Origin: Thiothrix subterranea
GTDB lineage: Bacteria > Pseudomonadota > Gammaproteobacteria > Thiotrichales > Thiotrichaceae
Direction: 5' to 3'
Length of the DNA: 64,000 nucleotides
NCBI RefSeq assembly: GCF_030930995.1
Contig: NZ_CP133217.1
Location: 3,028,001-3,092,000 of the forward strand
The notes beneath the pieces are model-generated. The model made no database searches, had not been told where the DNA came from, and was given only the letters and a program-made list of their open reading frames with translations. The position numbers and the translations under genes are program-made. This document shows positions 19,830 through 27,981 of this stretch, piece by piece; position 1 is the stretch's first letter; each line of letters starts with the position of its first letter.

Positions 19830-19995
19830 CCATTACAGGCGCATCCTCACCTTGCAAAACGACTTTGCCGTCTTGCCAAAGTACTGCGTAATGCCCTAAA
19901 CGGCGTTTCCTCTCCAAAGTCTGGGTGGCTGTTTTGCGCAGGCTTTCCAGCATAAGCTGTGTTTTTGTGCTTGGGGTTTTCGTGACAATTTTCAT
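19822..19995 (-). CDS. 57-aa protein coupled to the zeta-like kinase
   Basis: A short frame starting [20 protein letters not shown] and ending APVMVK. Its ATG overlaps the stop of the zeta-like gene as ATGA, so it is translationally coupled to it. It is basic in the middle ([12 protein letters not shown]) and has a short beta-rich C-terminal half ([13 protein letters not shown]). By position it could be the antitoxin or a regulator of the kinase, though in most zeta systems the antitoxin comes first. I do not recognise a family. Confidence 0.6.
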
Positions 19996-20573
19996 AGCCC
20001 AGCCTCCTTTAACAAAAGCTGATAGTAAGCAGATTCAATGATATTACGCTCATCACCGTGTTGCTCGAAAATCAATTCCGGTTGGCTGGCAATGTTCATA
20101 AAGCACTGGCAGTTGTCCACGATGTGACTGAACTCCTCCAGCAAATTGCGCAAGCTGCGGGCGAAACGCCGTTCAATATCCTGGAGCGGGATATTATGCC
20201 CGCCGTGTGCTACCCGTTCGGCAACGCGCTGTTTGGACATTTCCAGCGATGGCAGAGCGAAATACGCCAGTTCCACCTGCCATCCGCCCGCTTTCATGCG
20301 CTGAATCAGTTTCAGATAGGTACGGCCTGCCAGTGTGGTTTCAAAGGCGAAATCTTCGCGGCGCTGAATTGCCTCCCCGATTTCCCGCAGGAAAATCCGG
20401 CTGGCGGCTACCAGTTCACGTTCGGGGGCTAATGGCGACAAACCGGCTGCAATCAGGTCGGCGTTGATGAAGCGGGAACAGTTCGCCACGTTGGGCAGGT
20501 AATCCAGCGCGAAAGTGGTTTTTCCTGCGCCATTTGGGCCTGCGATGATGGTGCAAATAGGTTTATTTGTCAT
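19992..20573 (-). CDS. zeta-toxin-like P-loop kinase
   Basis: 193 residues from the ATG at 20573, which has GGAGG 7 bases upstream; a longer open frame to 20606 lacks a ribosome site. A Walker A motif, GPNGAGKT (12-19), is followed by [13 protein letters not shown] and FAFETTLAG, the pattern of zeta toxins and their chaperone-like relatives. Zeta toxins phosphorylate UDP-N-acetylglucosamine and block peptidoglycan synthesis; many chromosomal members of this short form have unproven activity. It is followed by a coupled 57-aa gene and preceded by the HNH/ATPase/hsdMS genes on the same strand, so it may be part of the same defence island. Confidence 0.78.
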
Positions 20574-20624
20574 GCACTTACCTCCAGCAAGTCGCGTGAT
20601 ATTCAAGTTAACAAATATAAAGAA

Positions 20625-21443
20625 TTACCGTTCAAAAACAGCGGCGATAATCGGTTCACTGCCCTTTTTCCTAATACAAGCCTCAGCGACAGATGAAAAC
20701 TCAGCTTCGTATTTGACCCTATCCTTTAATCTGCTAAGTGCCATATTTTTCATTAACCAAACCAATGCCTTCGCCCCTTGATCTCTCGCCCCCTGATATT
20801 CATTAATCTCACGTAGGCACTCATCCCAAATCCTGCCACGCTTCTGATTCAGGCGATCCAGCCTGTTCAACCCTAGAATATCTATGGTCTGCTCTGCCAT
20901 GAATCGCTCAACAGAATAATCAACTCCCCCTGCTAATACTGCGATACAACCATCATCATCACGCTCGTATGAGATTAAGCGAGTCTGATCAGTTAATGGG
21001 TCTATCAGTGCCGCACCTTCCAAACGGAGTTGAGCCTCAGAACAATTTTCCCGTGCCCGATATTCACCTTCGCAGATAGGAAAGTAATCCCGCTTCTTAA
21101 CATTGATAAGCTGCCCAGCAATGACATAGTTTTTGTAGTTGAAAGACAGCCACCAGTAACCCGATTCTGTAGACCCATCAGGATTCGTGATTCGGCCTTT
21201 AGGGCGAAAATGGTCAACGTGAATCGAAGAAACACTCTCTGCGGCTTCCGTGTACCAGCATTTATTAGCAAACTGTTGCAATAACCAGTTACGTATACGG
21301 TTATCACGCCAGAGATTTTCATTGGCTTTAATGATGACATGTCTGGCGGCTTCATCGGATGCTGCCTGTAGCTGGGCCGTTAGCCGATCTGCATCATCAA
21401 GCCAGTCTTGCGGCGGAGTACCAGTGATTACGACCTTTCGCAT
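20625..21443 (-). CDS. HNH endonuclease, Septu PtuB-like
   Basis: About 272 residues from the ATG at 21443 (AAGGGG 5 bases upstream; a GTG two codons earlier overlaps the ATPase stop). The HNH/beta-beta-alpha-Me core is visible: Cys64 in NKCWYTE, then HVDHFRPKG (77-85 counted from the GTG), and a downstream Tyr/Trp-rich segment (GYWWLSFNYKNY). This Cx..HxDHFRPK pattern is typical of the HNH partners of defence ATPases in Septu and some retrons. It lies directly after the AAA ATPase, as PtuB follows PtuA. It would cut DNA or RNA when licensed by the ATPase. Confidence 0.85.
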   Translation of the reverse strand: MRKVVITGTPPQDWLDDADRLTAQLQAASDEAARHVIIKANENLWRDNRIRNWLLQQFANKCWYTEAAESVSSIHVDHFRPKGRITNPDGSTESGYWWLSFNYKNYVIAGQLINVKKRDYFPICEGEYRARENCSEAQLRLEGAALIDPLTDQTRLISYERDDDGCIAVLAGGVDYSVERFMAEQTIDILGLNRLDRLNQKRGRIWDECLREINEYQGARDQGAKALVWLMKNMALSRLKDRVKYEAEFSSVAEACIRKKGSEPIIAAVFER

Positions 21444-21445
21444 TC

Positions 21446-23233
21446 TCACCCCTTAGCTTTTATTGCCAATTCTTGAGCAATTTTTGAGAGTTCATCAATT
21501 CTCTCAGCTTTTACCAGCTCTTCAATAATCTGCTCGGCAAGCTGGTTTTGCGCCTGAATTTCTTGTTTCGTCAGCAATTCATTCAGAGGTTTGCGGCGAA
21601 CTTTATACATCTGTTCGATAAATAGCTGATACATGGGGTCACGGTATTCGCGTGAAAAGCCAAGATCTTCCAGTCGCGTTACCAGATATTCCAGTTCCTG
21701 TTCTTCGTCAGGTGTTAAGCCTGCTTCCCTGCGTTTGGCCAATAGATCATTCCGGCATTGCAGATCATCCATGGTTTGACCATCGAGAGTGGATGGCAAG
21801 CCAAAGATTTCACTTTTCAACAAACCAGATACCCCCATACCTTGAGGATGCTCATCAGGTTGCACCACTTCGGTTTGTTGACCATGTTTTCGCAAAATAT
21901 GCACCTGTTCACGTTTGAGACCACCGATCATCATCGGGTCGTGGGTCGTAATCAGGACTTGTGACTCACCTTGTACAATGGCATCCGGGCGGGGTTTCAG
22001 GACATTCTCAATATCATCGAAGTAGCGCAGTTTCCAAATCGGATTGAGGTGGGTATCCGGCTCATCCAGCAGGAATAGGCAGTCATCTTCATTGGTGATT
22101 CGCATCAACCCCAGTACCGTCAGCATTTGCAGTTCACCTTCGGATAGCTGGGTGAAACTGACTTTACCGCCGTGTTCGTCACGCTTTTTGACGGTAATGC
22201 GGACTTCTTCGATCAGGTCGCCGATGTATGCGCCTTCGGCATAGCGGAAAAAGCTGCTGGGTGAGCCGATCAATTCGCCCAATTCACGCAGTTTTTCTTT
22301 GTCGGGAACAAACAAGTAAAGCTGTTTTTGCCGTTCACGCCTGCCACGAAAATCAATCAGTTTGGGTTCTTCGTGCTGGATAGGAGCCCATGCGACTTGC
22401 CACAGTTTATCCAGAAATTCGGATACTACGTTGCCGCGTGCGTACCAGAAACGTGGGTCGCCTTGCAGAATGTCGTCCTCTTCCAAACGGCGCAAGCGAT
22501 GCGGCTGTTTCAGCACGAACAAGGCTGATTCCAGCGATTCGATATTCAGGTTTTCGAGAATTTTCTGGAAGACAGGATCGTTAGAAAGCAGGCAAGCCAA
22601 TAACACCAGTTGGCTATGCCCTCCACGGCAGTAAAACAGCCGCCGCAAACGATCATCACCAAGTTGCCTTAGCAGCTCTTTTTCACGCTCCTCCAATTCT
22701 TTCACAGTATTTTCAGGCGTAACTTCCTCAGCCGTAATTTCCTGGCGACGATTAAAACGGCGTTGATGTTCCTGAAAAAGAATTTCCATACGTTCATTAC
22801 GCCCCGAGTAATAAGCAAAGATATGTGACGGCAGTAAACGTGGCCCTTTATGTGGGTCGTAATTCTCTTTTCTGGGATCATCATTTATGCGGAGGTAATC
22901 AAGAAACTTTTTCTCCCCATCAACCCAAACCAATGGTCTTTTCTGTTGGGCTAGATCACCCTTTACTTTTATCACATATCCACGAATTTTGTATTCAAGC
23001 TCGTAGTCAAACTCCACATCCAAACCTAAATCAATGCCGCGAAAAATGGAAATGATCGCCTCCATCAGATTGGATTTACCCGTGCCATTCTGACCAATCA
23101 GCGCATGGCTGCGGATTGCTTTCCGCTCTGTACTGGCGGGCTGTCTTGGTGATGGTTCGTAATACTCGGCGAAATCTACCGTTACATCACGCAGGTTGCG
23201 GAACTGTTTGAGCCAAAGGCGTTGCAATCGCAT
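21446..23233 (-). CDS. restriction-associated AAA ATPase, Septu PtuA-like
   Basis: 595 residues, an ABC/SMC-like ATPase. The Walker A GQNGTGKS is at 47-54, the signature-like LSEGELQML near 365, and the Walker B FLLDEPDTHLNP near 393 followed by the ITTHDP switch. A long helical insert separates the two halves of the nucleotide-binding fold, and the C-terminal 100 residues are helical. This is the family that NCBI calls restriction system-associated AAA ATPase. It starts 1 base from the end of hsdS and is coupled to the HNH gene, so hsdM, hsdS, ATPase and HNH are one transcription unit. Confidence 0.88.
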   Translation of the reverse strand: MRLQRLWLKQFRNLRDVTVDFAEYYEPSPRQPASTERKAIRSHALIGQNGTGKSNLMEAIISIFRGIDLGLDVEFDYELEYKIRGYVIKVKGDLAQQKRPLVWVDGEKKFLDYLRINDDPRKENYDPHKGPRLLPSHIFAYYSGRNERMEILFQEHQRRFNRRQEITAEEVTPENTVKELEEREKELLRQLGDDRLRRLFYCRGGHSQLVLLACLLSNDPVFQKILENLNIESLESALFVLKQPHRLRRLEEDDILQGDPRFWYARGNVVSEFLDKLWQVAWAPIQHEEPKLIDFRGRRERQKQLYLFVPDKEKLRELGELIGSPSSFFRYAEGAYIGDLIEEVRITVKKRDEHGGKVSFTQLSEGELQMLTVLGLMRITNEDDCLFLLDEPDTHLNPIWKLRYFDDIENVLKPRPDAIVQGESQVLITTHDPMMIGGLKREQVHILRKHGQQTEVVQPDEHPQGMGVSGLLKSEIFGLPSTLDGQTMDDLQCRNDLLAKRREAGLTPDEEQELEYLVTRLEDLGFSREYRDPMYQLFIEQMYKVRRKPLNELLTKQEIQAQNQLAEQIIEELVKAERIDELSKIAQELAIKAKG

Positions 23234-25206
23234 CAGTCTGCCTCCTTCTCCAGCATTTGCGCCCCAGTGGGTTCAGCAATCCAGCCGTGCCTCACTTCGG
23301 TTTTAAGCTGGGCGTAGAAAGCGTCAATTTCCCCGCCGAAGCGTTGCCACAAGTCATTTGCACCCATTTCACCGTTATGACGGGCAAGCAGGCTTGCCAA
23401 TGGGGCTTGGGTATTGCTGGAAGGTTGAACTGTCCCCAAACGCACCGGGGCTTTCAATTCGGTTTTTGGGACTTTCATAGGTTCCTCCTGTTGCAGGGTA
23501 GAAATACCAGTCAGACTTGCAATAGCAGCCGTCGCCAAACGTTCAGCCGTCTTCTGAGCGGAACTACGCTTTACTTCTAACGTATCGCAAAACTGCATCA
23601 AGGCTTGTAGTTTCTCTATGATTTTGATCTGAACATCAATCGGCGGCAAAGGTATAGATAACTCATGAATTACCTGACGAGAAACATTACGCATCGAATC
23701 GCTTGTACCTGTTGCCCTCACTCGATAATAAGCTCGTGCGTAACTTGAGTTATTCACCAAATTAACCCATTTTTTTACCCTATGATCAATAAAGTATAAC
23801 CTGACAATCTTATCACTCATCATCAATCTTTCCGGGCAACCGGCAGGAACAATAACACTTTTAGCAACCAAATCAGCAGTATTGGCGCGTGACATTAAAA
23901 AATCATTTGGCTTTGCTTCATATTCTGCTTTTGGCTCTAAAGATAATGGCAGCTTTTTATTCTCTCCACTGTTAAAAACACCCCAAGTAACTGCACTAAC
24001 TTTAAGAACACCCCATTGATCATTTTGACGTGGCTCGGAATCACACTGGGGACTCCAGCCAGAATCTGAACCTAATAACAAATCCTCAAGCAATACCCAA
24101 GACCAATTTTCTGGCAAATCAAAACTTGCTTCGGCTTCTTTAAGCTTTGCGAATCTTTTACTTTTCTTTATTGTCTTTACTTCTTCCACGAAGTTTTTAA
24201 CAGAATCAGGTGAGTTCTCATCCAACAGTAGCCCTTTTATTGCCATGTCAGAAATCAGAATGCGAAGTTCTGCAACATCCTCCGCCTCAGCAAAAAGATA
24301 CGAGAAATTCCCCGCCAATCGTTCCCAGCTATTTTGCAACTCTTTCGGGCTTTCCGCATTGGCAACCGCTTGCAAGACAGACTGACGCAACTTGTTCTGT
24401 AACTTGCGTTTTTTCTGTTGTTGGGTTTCGAGTTTGTCGCAAAGAGCCATGAGTTCATCGACTTTGGCAACAATGCGGGATTGTTCTTCTGTTGGAGGTA
24501 AAGGAATAGGATAGGTAGCAAAAAACTCTGTAGGTAGACGTTTCTGACCCGCAGTTCCTGTCATATTTTTCTCACCTTCAACCTTAAAATAAGGAGATCG
24601 AAGGAATATATAAACATAATTAGGCAATACACCTTTATGGATCAGACGAACCACATGTAACTCAGTAGTACCAGCACCTATTCCCAGTTCACTTTTCAAA
24701 CCACGGATAACAGCAGCTTTTCCATTCTCAAAACATGGAGTTATTTTTGCAACTACAACGTCATTATTGGCAAAATGAGTATAACCTTTTTTAATTTCAT
24801 CCCACCGACGAACCTCGCTAACCAAAGCCACCTGATGTGACTCAGAAATACTGTGCATAGGTATAAAGTCAGCCAGACTGCCATTTTCATCGTCTAATTT
24901 ATTTTTTGGGCTAACTTCACCTATATCTAACAGTCGAGTCCACACCCAACTGTTAGGAATACTAACATTCCCAGGAATTAGCAGAATCTCCTTTTCCAAC
25001 TTTGGGATTCGCTTATATTTGTTTTTCTTTATCAGCTTCTCGCGCTCTAGTTCAATTTTTCGCAGCAAACTCTCAGCCTCTTCAACTTGCTGACTTAACA
25101 AACCTGTAATAGCTAACTGATAAATCATTTCCCGAAGACGCTGCACACCATTAGGTGCATTGGCGATGTGTCCAAACTCGGCTAGAAACTGTTTGGCATC
25201 CATCAA
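23233..25206 (-). CDS. hsdS: type I restriction-modification specificity subunit HsdS
   Basis: 657 residues with two target-recognition domains (about 85-245 and 365-545), each closed by the conserved helix motif: PLPPTEEQSRIVAKVDELMA and PLPPIDVQIKIIEKLQALMQ. These set the two half-sites of a bipartite DNA target. The protein is longer than the common 400-450 residues because of an N-terminal helical region (1-80), a long linker between the TRDs and a C-terminal ~90-residue extension after TAAIASLTGI. It overlaps hsdM by 4 bases. The target sequence cannot be inferred. Confidence 0.93.
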   Translation of the reverse strand: MMDAKQFLAEFGHIANAPNGVQRLREMIYQLAITGLLSQQVEEAESLLRKIELEREKLIKKNKYKRIPKLEKEILLIPGNVSIPNSWVWTRLLDIGEVSPKNKLDDENGSLADFIPMHSISESHQVALVSEVRRWDEIKKGYTHFANNDVVVAKITPCFENGKAAVIRGLKSELGIGAGTTELHVVRLIHKGVLPNYVYIFLRSPYFKVEGEKNMTGTAGQKRLPTEFFATYPIPLPPTEEQSRIVAKVDELMALCDKLETQQQKKRKLQNKLRQSVLQAVANAESPKELQNSWERLAGNFSYLFAEAEDVAELRILISDMAIKGLLLDENSPDSVKNFVEEVKTIKKSKRFAKLKEAEASFDLPENWSWVLLEDLLLGSDSGWSPQCDSEPRQNDQWGVLKVSAVTWGVFNSGENKKLPLSLEPKAEYEAKPNDFLMSRANTADLVAKSVIVPAGCPERLMMSDKIVRLYFIDHRVKKWVNLVNNSSYARAYYRVRATGTSDSMRNVSRQVIHELSIPLPPIDVQIKIIEKLQALMQFCDTLEVKRSSAQKTAERLATAAIASLTGISTLQQEEPMKVPKTELKAPVRLGTVQPSSNTQAPLASLLARHNGEMGANDLWQRFGGEIDAFYAQLKTEVRHGWIAEPTGAQMLEKEAD

Positions 25207-27008
25207 GCGGCATCCTCTTCTGCGAAGTGGTGTGCTAAGGCTGCTGCCAATTCACTTTTCAGGGTGTTTTCGGTTTCTTCGATTTCGCCGAGTAGTTTTT
25301 TGTACTTGTCCAGTAATATGTCAGGGTCATGGATTTCTTCTTCTGCTGAATTCGGGTTTTTCAGGTCGAGGTTGAAGATAGGCCAGTAGATGCGGTCGCC
25401 CGCTGCCTTGGCATCACGCGCTTTCAGGTAGAGCGGTTCGTATTGCGCTTTCAGGTCGTCAATCTGCTTATCAACCTGTTTACGATACTCGGCATCCGTG
25501 CCGCCAACCAGACTTTTGCGTAGTTCTTTGGCTTGATTCTCCAAGTTTTTAGCTTGGTTGTTGAGTTCTTCCGCTCTTGCCCAATGCGGCTTGGCTTCTG
25601 CCAGTTTTTCTGTACGCAGGGTTTTGAAGTCAACTTTCCACGCCAGTTCGCTTTCTTCACGGTCGGTAAAGTCGTTGTCTTCCGTTCCCCACCATGCCTT
25701 TTCTGCGTCGAACTCTTCCAGCCGGATCGGTTTGGTTTTGGAATAGCTTTTGTAACCGGACGGATACGGATGCTCATAAAACCAGATCGTTTCAGTTGCG
25801 AAGATTTCATCCTGATCCGCATCATCCGCCACCTTTGCCTTGTGCCGAGTAAAGAACAGCAGGTTGGTTTTGATAGTGGTATAAGGCGCGAACACACCTT
25901 TGGGCAAGCGCACAATCGTATGCAGCTTACATTCCTTCAACAGCTTTTCTTTCAGCTTGCCCTTGATACCATCGCCAAACATGAAGCCATCCGGCAACAC
26001 CACCGCAGCCCGCCCACCGTCATCTTTCAGCAGCTTCTTAATGATCAGTGCCATGAACATGTCAGCAGTTTCACGGGTACGCAGGTCAACGGGATAGCCG
26101 CCCCCTACGCTGTCCTCCTCATAACCACCAAACGGCGGATTGGTCACAATGCAATCAAACTTTTTACTCTCATCCCAGTCGCCCCAAGCTTTTGCCAAAG
26201 TATTGCGATGTTCAATCTGACTGGGCGTATCAACGCCGTGTAACAGCAAATTGGTCGTACACAGCAGATGGGGTAACGGTTTCTTCTCAAAACCAAAAAT
26301 CAAGTCTTCAATTAACCGCTTATCATCTGGACTAGGTTTATCCGCAAGCTGATGATTGAAATACTCAATTGCCGCTGTCAAAAACCCTCCCGTACCACAA
26401 GCAGGGTCAAGTACCTTATCTTTTTTATCCAGCCTTGGACTAAGCCGATTAACCATAAACTGAGTAATCGCCCTTGGCGTATAAAACTCCCCCGCATTAC
26501 CTGCACCACGCAAGTCATTGAGCATTTGCTCATACACATCACCCAGATTGGCGCGAGTCTTGAAATCGTGGAGGTCGATAGCCTCGTCCAGCTTCTCGAT
26601 TACTTCCTGCATCAACTGCCCGGACTTCATGTAGTTATGGGATTCGCTGAAAACCGTATGGACAACCTTCTCTTTTTTGCCAAGATCGGGGTTCACCCTC
26701 TGCAAGCCCGGAAACAGCGTATTGTTCACAAAGTCGATCAATTTATCGGCAAGCATATTGGGCTGTTTCTTACCCTGTGCATCCTTGACGGGTTCTGCCC
26801 AGTCACACCAGCGCAAACCATCTGGAATCGGTGATACGTAGTCTGTTTTGTTATCCTTCGCATCCTTTTCCCAGTCTTGTTCCCGCTGATCAAATACTTT
26901 CAGGAACAGCATCCAGGTCAACTGACCAATACGCTGCGCATCGCCATCGACACCCGCATCCTTGCGCATAATGTCCTGAATACTCTTGATGGTACTGCTG
27001 AGATTCAT
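25203..27008 (-). CDS. hsdM: type I restriction-modification methyltransferase HsdM
   Basis: 601 residues from the ATG at 27008 (AAGGAA upstream; the frame is open to 27050 without a ribosome site). N-terminal HsdM_N helical domain, then the N6-adenine methyltransferase core: SAM-binding DPACGTGG (201-208) and catalytic NPPF (290-293) in IVTNPPFGG. A charged helical C-terminus (about 440-601) would contact HsdS. It methylates adenine in the DNA site set by HsdS. There is no hsdR in the window; the position it would occupy is taken by the AAA ATPase and HNH genes. Confidence 0.94.
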   Translation of the reverse strand: MNLSSTIKSIQDIMRKDAGVDGDAQRIGQLTWMLFLKVFDQREQDWEKDAKDNKTDYVSPIPDGLRWCDWAEPVKDAQGKKQPNMLADKLIDFVNNTLFPGLQRVNPDLGKKEKVVHTVFSESHNYMKSGQLMQEVIEKLDEAIDLHDFKTRANLGDVYEQMLNDLRGAGNAGEFYTPRAITQFMVNRLSPRLDKKDKVLDPACGTGGFLTAAIEYFNHQLADKPSPDDKRLIEDLIFGFEKKPLPHLLCTTNLLLHGVDTPSQIEHRNTLAKAWGDWDESKKFDCIVTNPPFGGYEEDSVGGGYPVDLRTRETADMFMALIIKKLLKDDGGRAAVVLPDGFMFGDGIKGKLKEKLLKECKLHTIVRLPKGVFAPYTTIKTNLLFFTRHKAKVADDADQDEIFATETIWFYEHPYPSGYKSYSKTKPIRLEEFDAEKAWWGTEDNDFTDREESELAWKVDFKTLRTEKLAEAKPHWARAEELNNQAKNLENQAKELRKSLVGGTDAEYRKQVDKQIDDLKAQYEPLYLKARDAKAAGDRIYWPIFNLDLKNPNSAEEEIHDPDILLDKYKKLLGEIEETENTLKSELAAALAHHFAEEDAA

Positions 27009-27210
27009 CCGGTTTCCTTGTTGATTATCGGCGCTTGAGAAGCCAGCCAAACCAAGGGTTTTTACCGACTAATTGCCAACGAGTAAAGCGTCTAATGGTA
27101 GGCTAACTGACATAACTATCCAGCCAGTTCCTGATATAACGCCTGTTCCAGCCCTCTGACGGCTTAATTGTATTGTTCAGGACTACCGAAAATTAAAGCC
27201 ACATTCGTGA

Positions 27211-27981
27211 TTAATCCGCAGGCCGCCACACCGTGACGGTAAACAAACAACCCTCACGGTCGTCCTTGAAATCAATCTGAGGCCACGCTTCCAACGCTCG
27301 CAGAATCCCTGAACCTAAGCCACGGTAGGGCAACAGTTTCTTGGCAATGAACGATGCCAAGATGGGATTACGCAAATTCGAGTTACCCGCTTTCACTTTT
27401 TCAACAGTAAGATTATTAGGCAAATGACCGGGGCTAACAATCTCAATACGGTTAGCGTAAACCAGCACCCGAATCGGCGCACTGATAAAATAATCGCGAT
27501 GGATCAAGGCATTAACCAGCAACTCTTCAAATACCAAACGCGGCACTTCCGGCTCACCCACCGAATTAAAACTTTGCTGCCCTTGCCGCTTATGCAGGTT
27601 ACGCATAATAAAACGCAAGGTATCATCAAACACGTCGCGTAGCCTGCCTCCAATATCTTCGCTATCCACATAGCTGCTGGATTCAATCACATTGCCGGGA
27701 AATGTCACCGCTTTGACGATGAAGTCTGGGTTAATATGATGAGGTCGTTTAGCAAAAAACAAAACAGCAGCAAGGTTTATATTACCCTGCTCTGTTGCAA
27801 GGTTCAGGTCTTGTAACAAACACAGCAAATCAATGTTCTGCTCAGGAGCATCCAAAAGATCAGCTATTTGTAAAAACTCAAACAAAGTACGACGGTCGAT
27901 TTCATCAATGCTTGTATCATAGCTTAGTTCTCCAGTATTGACACACCCTAGAACTTCATTGTTGAGTTCCTCAAGCGTCAT
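27211..27981 (-). CDS. AlbA-type ATP-binding transcriptional regulator lacking its N-terminal domain
   Basis: 256 residues. The C-terminal two thirds match the HATPase_c_4 part of AlbA_2/ATP-binding proteins: EELLVNALIHRDYF (the N-box analogue), IEIVSPGHLPNNLTVE and YRGLGSGILRALE. Family members normally carry about 150-200 more N-terminal residues with an AlbA_2 domain of the VEFK...GG type; here the frame begins directly in the linker. The ATG overlaps the DUF2189 stop, so it may be a real short form or a truncated gene with a fortuitous start. 202 bases separate it from hsdM; I see no certain gene there. Confidence 0.7.
   Translation of the reverse strand: MTLEELNNEVLGCVNTGELSYDTSIDEIDRRTLFEFLQIADLLDAPEQNIDLLCLLQDLNLATEQGNINLAAVLFFAKRPHHINPDFIVKAVTFPGNVIESSSYVDSEDIGGRLRDVFDDTLRFIMRNLHKRQGQQSFNSVGEPEVPRLVFEELLVNALIHRDYFISAPIRVLVYANRIEIVSPGHLPNNLTVEKVKAGNSNLRNPILASFIAKKLLPYRGLGSGILRALEAWPQIDFKDDREGCLFTVTVWRPAD

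Follow-up and report, generated by a model that had tools for sequence, protein, structure and literature searches.

We describe a candidate defence unit in Thiothrix subterranea, found in a stretch of 64,000 nucleotides (contig NZ_CP133217.1, positions 3,028,001 to 3,092,000; the window below). Four intact minus-strand genes spanning 20625-27008 encode, in this order, the methyltransferase subunit HsdM and the specificity subunit HsdS of a type I restriction-modification (RM) system, a PtuA-like ATPase and a PtuB-like HNH protein, the last two being the components of Septu. HsdR, the motor and nuclease subunit of type I systems, is missing. In every relative of the ATPase that we collected hsdS lies upstream of ptuA, and hsdR has been lost repeatedly. 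With somewhat less than even confidence, we infer that the four genes may form a single unit in which HsdM-HsdS would be the sensor, PtuA-PtuB the effector and HsdR an optional second effector. The pattern suggests that HsdM-HsdS may directly control the Septu pair as an anti-phage weapon.

The original prediction, made from the letters of the window, described these genes as overlapping or abutting and identified them as a methyltransferase, a specificity subunit, an AAA ATPase and an HNH nuclease. This description holds: hsdM and hsdS overlap by 4 nucleotides, hsdS and ptuA by 1, and ptuA and ptuB by 4. The type I N6-adenine methyltransferase subunit HsdM (25203..27008, minus strand, ATG at 27008; 601 amino acids) has a C-terminal extension. 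It matches N6_Mtase (PF02384, 208.7 bits) and HsdM_N (PF12161) of Pfam, MTase_I of PADLOC (919 bits) and PDB 3ufb (E 8e-94), and carries the motifs DPACGTG and NPPF. HsdS (23233..25206, minus strand, 657 amino acids) matches Specificity_I of PADLOC (PDLC03096) with 750.9 bits over residues 2-656, while Methylase_S of Pfam covers one stretch of it only; an extra C-terminal domain of about 80 amino acids is recognized with its own profile. The PtuA-like ATPase (21446..23233, minus strand, 595 amino acids) matches PADLOC PtuA (PDLC00293) with 640 bits over residues 1-577 and AAA_21/AAA_15 of Pfam. Its Walker and signature motifs are intact, and the key residues of GQNGTGKS, LSEGE and LLDEPDTH are invariant across 12 aligned rows. 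It also gives a match below cut-off to the NCBIfam model "restriction system-associated AAA" (TIGR04435, 137.9 bits, cut-off 300), which means that a cousin of the ATPase was noticed beside restriction genes earlier. The PtuB-like HNH protein (20625..21449, minus strand, 274 amino acids) has an intact HVDHFRPK motif and matches PADLOC PtuB (PDLC00333) with 323 bits. It has no match in Pfam; the profile of its family matches PtuB chains in the PDB with E values of 3.5e-5 to 1.6e-3. An AlphaFold model of PtuB was set aside (mean pLDDT 63.5, nuclease core below 50); a Foldseek search with it returned nothing at E<=0.001, a chain of the retron Ec78 complex ranking 16th with E 2.2.

Relatives were sought by the PtuA ATPase alone, assuming nothing about hsd genes. 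The census comprises 71 loci (the window, L008-L053, L102, L130, L158-L162 and L166-L182); outside it stand 14 genomes with weaker partial ATPase matches (E 1.6e-15 to 5.7e-4) and one E. coli hit, H50. All 71 loci have hsdS upstream of ptuA and on its strand; the two genes are direct neighbours except in two Methylococcaceae loci (L044 and L045), where a zeta-like gene separates them. hsdM was found in 67 loci, and in the other four the contig ends there. So constant an order goes far beyond what chance would give. None of the 71 loci has PtuAB of this family without hsdS, a design based on PtuA being blind to loss of ptuA itself. The nearest relatives are 46 loci in GTDB genomes, all 46 with hsdS before ptuA. 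Where their upstream region can be read (41 of 46), an hsdR of about 810 codons precedes hsdM (of the EcoEI_R_C type in L010); it is intact in 38 loci and broken in three, being split by inserted DNA in L034, deprived of its N-terminal half in L037 and frameshifted in L027. Among E. coli genomes, a megablast search with a Klebsiella locus gave only matches of 40-57 bases among the 40 of 87 records listed; the distant search mode found loci. Phage records gave no match to the locus at E<=1e-30.

As had been predicted, the window holds no HsdR reading frame, either by tblastn with 39 HsdR proteins or by profile. There is, however, a relic. Just upstream of hsdM, at 27128..27193 on the minus strand, about 22 codons with an in-frame stop match the profile of the HsdR tail with 25.6 bits (independent E-value 4.5e-7), the next best place in the window scoring 1.8 bits. 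The match to the full-length HsdR profile is weak (3.8 bits, independent E-value 0.06). The relic was scored on frames with stops masked and did not appear in the profile scan of frames cut at stops. A decayed 3' end of hsdR in this position means that the gene was once present and was lost in place. The possibility that a linked hsdR resides elsewhere in the genome, raised with the original prediction, was followed up as well: searches with HSDR_N and with HsdR proteins found none of the matching subfamily. We also considered whether hsdR might be hidden in an assembly gap and rejected this, the genome consisting of two contigs, being rated 100% complete and having been searched whole with HSDR_N and SWI2_SNF2. 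We likewise rejected the idea that another nuclease gene next to the unit has taken the place of hsdR, the upstream neighbour in the window being a shortened HATPase_c_4 gene. In E. coli, the proteins upstream of the unit in L179 and L176 have no Pfam match, and a different effector is possible there. The same genome has a second decayed type I locus (L067, G000:C2 2980792-2984131), where a fragment of HsdM with an internal TGA lies with an open HsdR frame of 499 amino acids.

Of the 71 loci, 44 have an intact hsdR, 18 have none or a relic, three have a broken gene and six cannot be read because of contig ends (L016, L019, L021, L028, L033 and L166), the states having been assigned by hand. 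On a maximum likelihood tree of PtuA obtained by quick search, these states require at least seven changes between presence and absence of hsdR, or 10 if broken genes are counted. The window sits within an hsdR-bearing group, beside two Vibrio loci (SH-aLRT 99). Its loss of hsdR is derived, since 38 of the 41 readable GTDB relatives keep the gene intact, and the relic accompanies it. Hence the proposal that the locus is a hybrid of type I restriction and Septu stands in part: there is one conserved unit (71 of 71), and hsdR is dispensable to it (none or a relic in 18 of 65 readable loci), whereas the locus is not a founding hybrid that lacked hsdR. The order of hsdM, hsdS, ATPase and HNH genes is conserved, while close relatives as a rule do have hsdR.

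Other losses resemble that of the window. L130 is a contig from a virus collection and carries a phage integrase gene upstream of hsdM; its hsdR relic corresponds to residues 725-807 of the protein. Three E. coli genomes (L173-175; 3 of 5,426 matched) share an island with HsdR fragments of residues approximately 364-445 and 742-807, the finer scan having been run on L173. In the window, L130 and L173-175 alike, hsdM, hsdS, ptuA and ptuB are intact beside the relic. A further group is hsdR-less and comprises nine rows (L159, L161, L171 and L177-L182; SH-aLRT 92), of which L178-L182 are near-identical E. coli copies. Eight E. coli genomes had about a tenth of a Pantoea ptuA matched; seven of them were read, and all show hsdM-hsdS-ptuA-ptuB with no hsdR within the 20 kb read. 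Five plasmid records were found at 31-33% PtuA identity. In each of them hsdS precedes ptuA, and over their whole length four give no match to HSDR_N or SWI2_SNF2. In a sample of 398 genomes of the phylum, the ATPase was found at E<=1e-70 in two genomes besides that of the window. Both (G468 and G728, rated 100% complete) have hsdMS at the locus without hsdR; neither has an HSDR_N match in the whole genome, and SWI2_SNF2 gave nothing in one and a single match below cut-off in the other. As side observations, the unit in L178-L182, near ygbA and hyp genes, lies on an integrase-bearing island with a Fic gene downstream, and in L179-L182 a protein of 494 amino acids is encoded upstream of it (no Pfam match in L179, the one scanned).

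Key motifs of PtuA, PtuB and HsdM are retained. LLDEPDTH is present in 71 of 71 PtuA proteins and Walker A in all but the split ones of L050 and L172 (69 of 71), the PtuB motif [DE]H[FYW]xP[KR] in 70 of 71 loci (L045 is truncated), and NPPF in 66 of 67 HsdM matches, the exception (L021) being a contig-end fragment of 50 amino acids. Split frames occur in hsdM (L026, L049), hsdS (L040, L049, L050), ptuA (L045, L050, L172) and ptuB (L045, L049); large losses are seen in hsdR only. In the hsdR-less group all four genes are intact. The ratio of nonsynonymous to synonymous substitution rates (dN/dS) there is 0.066-0.085 for HsdM and 0.062-0.078 for PtuA, over pairs with finite dS that are not near-identical; the near-identical pair L178/L179 gives 0.24 and 0.14 from few changes. 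This group is under purifying selection where it can be measured. Moreover, the hsdR-less loci L159, L177 and L178 differ by replacement of one HsdS target domain, where identity falls to 18-35% over 160-200 columns; most of the flanking blocks share 58-98%, boundary blocks 42-52% and the HsdM proteins 85-88%. Replacement of a target domain where hsdR is gone is what would be expected if the sequence read by the complex still matters without HsdR. PtuB, too, has been exchanged, L177 and L178 sharing 33% identity.

When the search is made from the other side, the two halves of the unit behave differently. HsdM searches of 369 and 398 genomes yielded 32 further loci, and HsdR is present in 32 of 32. 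PtuAB of the window's family is absent from all 29 of these that have enough contig; L097, L139 and L149 are too short for the call, no more than about 0.5 kb follows hsdS in L134 and L146, and weakly PtuA-like proteins near L150 and L152 (100 and 26 bits) were not counted. It had been asked whether the two halves occur apart. The answer is one-sided: hsdRMS relatives exist alone, and PtuAB has not been seen alone (0 of 71). In L131, with HsdM and HsdS of the full-length type, a HamA-helicase (Hachiman) pair (L131:1945-4958) takes the place of ptuAB beside hsdRMS of the PtuAB-linked type. Loss or breakage of hsdR affects 15 of 58 distinct PtuAB loci and none of the HsdM-found loci (Fisher p 0.002 with 29, 0.0008 with 32), and 6 of 44 in the close branch (p 0.075 with 29, 0.036 with 32), the rows compared being neither independent nor sampled alike. 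We also asked whether the HsdS C-terminal domain and the HsdM extension could be a dock for PtuAB. The extension is found in 47 of 70 PtuAB loci (window excluded), and among the HsdM-found loci its profile still matches 29 of 32, in most cases over the second half alone; the HsdS domain occurs in two of those 32 (L131, and L097, which is cut by a contig end). The dock idea was dropped as evidence because both features are confined to one branch, a distribution that shared descent explains equally well.

In G001, of the same genus, the same site, between the DUF2189 and Na_Ca_ex genes, holds a different, complete type I set: a 386-amino-acid version of the HATPase_c_4 protein, HsdR of 1017 amino acids, HsdM, DUF1016 and HsdS. 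The window's HATPase_c_4 gene (27211..27981, minus strand, 256 amino acids, PF13749) lacks the N-terminal region of this homologue, which heads the different hsdRMS operon; it is probably a leftover of a locus swap. In G012 and G004 no more than about 1 kb separates the DUF2189 gene from a P-type ATPase gene, and no hsd or ptu match was found. Within the unit GC content is 0.41-0.49, against 0.48-0.59 in the flanking DNA that was read. The site looks like a hot spot for the swapping of restriction loci.

How might such a unit work? A type IB-like hsdRMS-ptuAB operon would be the ancestor, from which hsdR decayed in place. HsdM-HsdS would bind PtuAB and hold it idle as long as its sites carry host methylation; on meeting unmethylated DNA, such as that of a phage, it would switch PtuAB on, and the activated PtuAB would cleave nucleic acid. 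Both DNA and tRNA are possible substrates, since characterized relatives differ: an E. coli Septu cuts the variable loop of tRNA-Tyr and requires its Walker and HNH residues (PMC13096335), and earlier work had PtuAB of another E. coli Septu acting on DNA (reported in PMC11555353). A fuller version of this scheme is more tentative, and we would call it possible rather than probable. The methylase would read methylation at a two-part site, and unmethylated phage DNA would lead the Septu pair to cut tRNA (or DNA), giving restriction free of HsdR and possibly arrest of translation; the arrangement would have arisen by addition of ptuAB to hsdRMS, followed by many separate discards of hsdR. Several observations weigh against the scheme. 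Since hsdR is kept in most close relatives (38 of 41), PtuAB there is usually an addition to HsdR and not a replacement for it. Methylation could have been retained because it serves regulation. Contact between HsdMS and PtuAB is putative, and the HsdS C-terminal domain is found in 51 of 70 PtuAB loci (window excluded), in the close branch only, and also in L131, which has no PtuAB. Finally, the PtuA tree has very long branches and its root is unknown, and in most pairs dS approaches or exceeds saturation.

Other explanations of the same facts have to be considered. HsdMS, together with HsdR if present, may be a guard that sequesters PtuAB, in the manner of a toxin and its antitoxin, so that a phage anti-restriction protein would free PtuAB and stop growth, for example by tRNA cleavage, with phage methylation never being read. 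We regard this as a real but doubtful possibility. It has precedent: a type I complex, that of EcoprrI, keeps PrrC sequestered (PMC3874165), PrrC orthologues always occur in linkage with type IC loci (PMC2610378), RM guardians are a recognized class (PMC12707154), and PtuAB of a retron arrests growth and degrades tRNA-Tyr, the retron's partners having been tested as antitoxin candidates (PMC11555353). The close linkage of hsdMS and ptuAB would suit it as well. A purely structural lock, however, needs neither NPPF (66 of 67) nor the exchange of target domains without hsdR, and because of these two features we prefer the version in which DNA is read.

It could also be that nothing binds the two halves together: chance would have removed hsdR, leaving hsdMS as a solitary, perhaps regulatory, methylase and ptuAB as a passenger Septu unrelated to it. 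In favour of this are the state of the window, where hsdR survives as no more than a relic and the gene upstream is shortened, and the different complete hsdRMS at the same site in G001. We nevertheless find it unlikely, given four intact and closely linked genes, at least seven changes of hsdR state, a divergent hsdR-less group kept intact, and loss of hsdR in PtuAB loci against none in the HsdM-found loci, a difference that is statistically weaker in the close branch. Least probable of all, and hardly to be expected, is that another type I system of the same genome supplies HsdR in trans. The genome does have seven HSDR_N places. Yet the best of these HsdRs has 35% identity to the cognate subfamily, whose members share 72-99%; each of the seven has an HsdM match of its own nearby (that of L067 holds a stop, that near L064 is weak, E 4e-5); type I families were defined partly by complementation (PMC3874165); and G468 and G728 carry the unit with no HSDR_N match genome-wide, by a model that does detect the cognate subfamily (33.8 bits). 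Control of PtuAB by an HsdM-HsdS that reads DNA remains the reading that we prefer.

Various neighbours accompany the unit. Directly downstream of ptuB in the window is a zeta-like kinase gene (19992..20606, minus strand; PF06414, 40.4 bits), and the zeta-like genes of L044 and L045 are about 62% identical to it; such a kinase accompanies the unit now and then, and its membership is uncertain. A DUF1016/YhcG gene of the PD-(D/E)XK kind is found in 21 of the 71 loci, mostly between hsdM and hsdS (e.g. L012:6917-8014), and is absent from the window. In L008, L009, L011, L015 and L027 a protein of 451-463 amino acids (PLDc_2 in L008) follows ptuB and an Mrr-type protein of about 300 amino acids (typed in L008) precedes hsdR; these are possible further effectors. 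Two types of PtuB occur in the close loci, sharing either 50-71% or about 30% identity with that of the window (L008-L015 and L049 versus the rest). Only with the first type does the PtuA match extend to the C-terminal tail (590-595), which hints at a contact between PtuA and PtuB at this tail.

In the fuller version of the scheme, sequence-specific DNA reading would be coupled to an effector that was swapped in. The comparative pattern is that of one unit, in which PtuAB follows the methylase rather than the methylase PtuAB, and HsdR is expendable in the presence of PtuAB. Whether a restriction system can change its effector while keeping its DNA reader thereby becomes a general question that can be tested. 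Septu proteins would be offered a natural control partner, and the unit may account for some of the hsdMS genes in E. coli and on plasmids that seem to be solitary. Judging from the PADLOC names, annotation by profiles probably reports such a locus as an incomplete type I system beside a Septu.

How does the unit compare with what is known? With type IB RM systems, among which EcoAI and EcoEI are listed (PMC3874165), it shares HsdM and HsdS, and most close relatives have an HsdR directly upstream, with the EcoEI_R_C domain in L010; it differs in having PtuAB downstream, an extra C-terminal domain in HsdS and, in the window, only a relic of the motor-nuclease, so that of the three type I subunits two are present there. 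By PADLOC profiles both of its Ptu proteins are those of Septu, with ATPase and HNH motifs of the same kinds. Septu as published consists of ptuA and ptuB (PMC13096335), whereas a free-standing pair was not seen in this family, where hsdS is upstream in 71 of 71 loci and, in the window, overlaps ptuA. One review lists phage SSB as the trigger of free-standing Septu (PMC12904381). Retron Ec78/Eco7 resembles the unit in that PtuAB is a toxic effector inside a larger system (PMC11555353); the partner here is a DNA methylase, no reverse transcriptase was seen among the neighbours scanned (the nearest are the Zeta_toxin, HATPase_c_4 and DUF2189 proteins), and the retron models of NCBIfam score the window's proteins at 19.4 of 500 bits (PtuA) and 26.7 of 150 (PtuB). 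EcoprrI-PrrC likewise joins an ABC-type ATPase toxin to a type I system (PMC2610378, PMC3874165). It differs in that the window has the two-protein PtuAB, that HsdR of the relatives is type IB-like and that hsdR is repeatedly absent; PrrC was not among the best 25 of the 102 PADLOC families matching the window's PtuA. MADS, listed as methylation-based with its restriction step unknown (PMC12904381), combines a methylase and a specificity protein with an AAA ATPase, to go by NCBIfam names; its models match far below cut-off (MAD2 89 of 720 bits, MAD3 33 of 420, MAD5 32 of 400), and the unit in the window has four genes including an HNH partner. We found no description of hsdMS combined with PtuAB, or of the hsdR-less form, in searches of openly licensed PMC papers. 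Every part of the unit is known, and precedents are provided by PrrC, by MADS and by the Septu embedded in Hma systems (PMC12255303).

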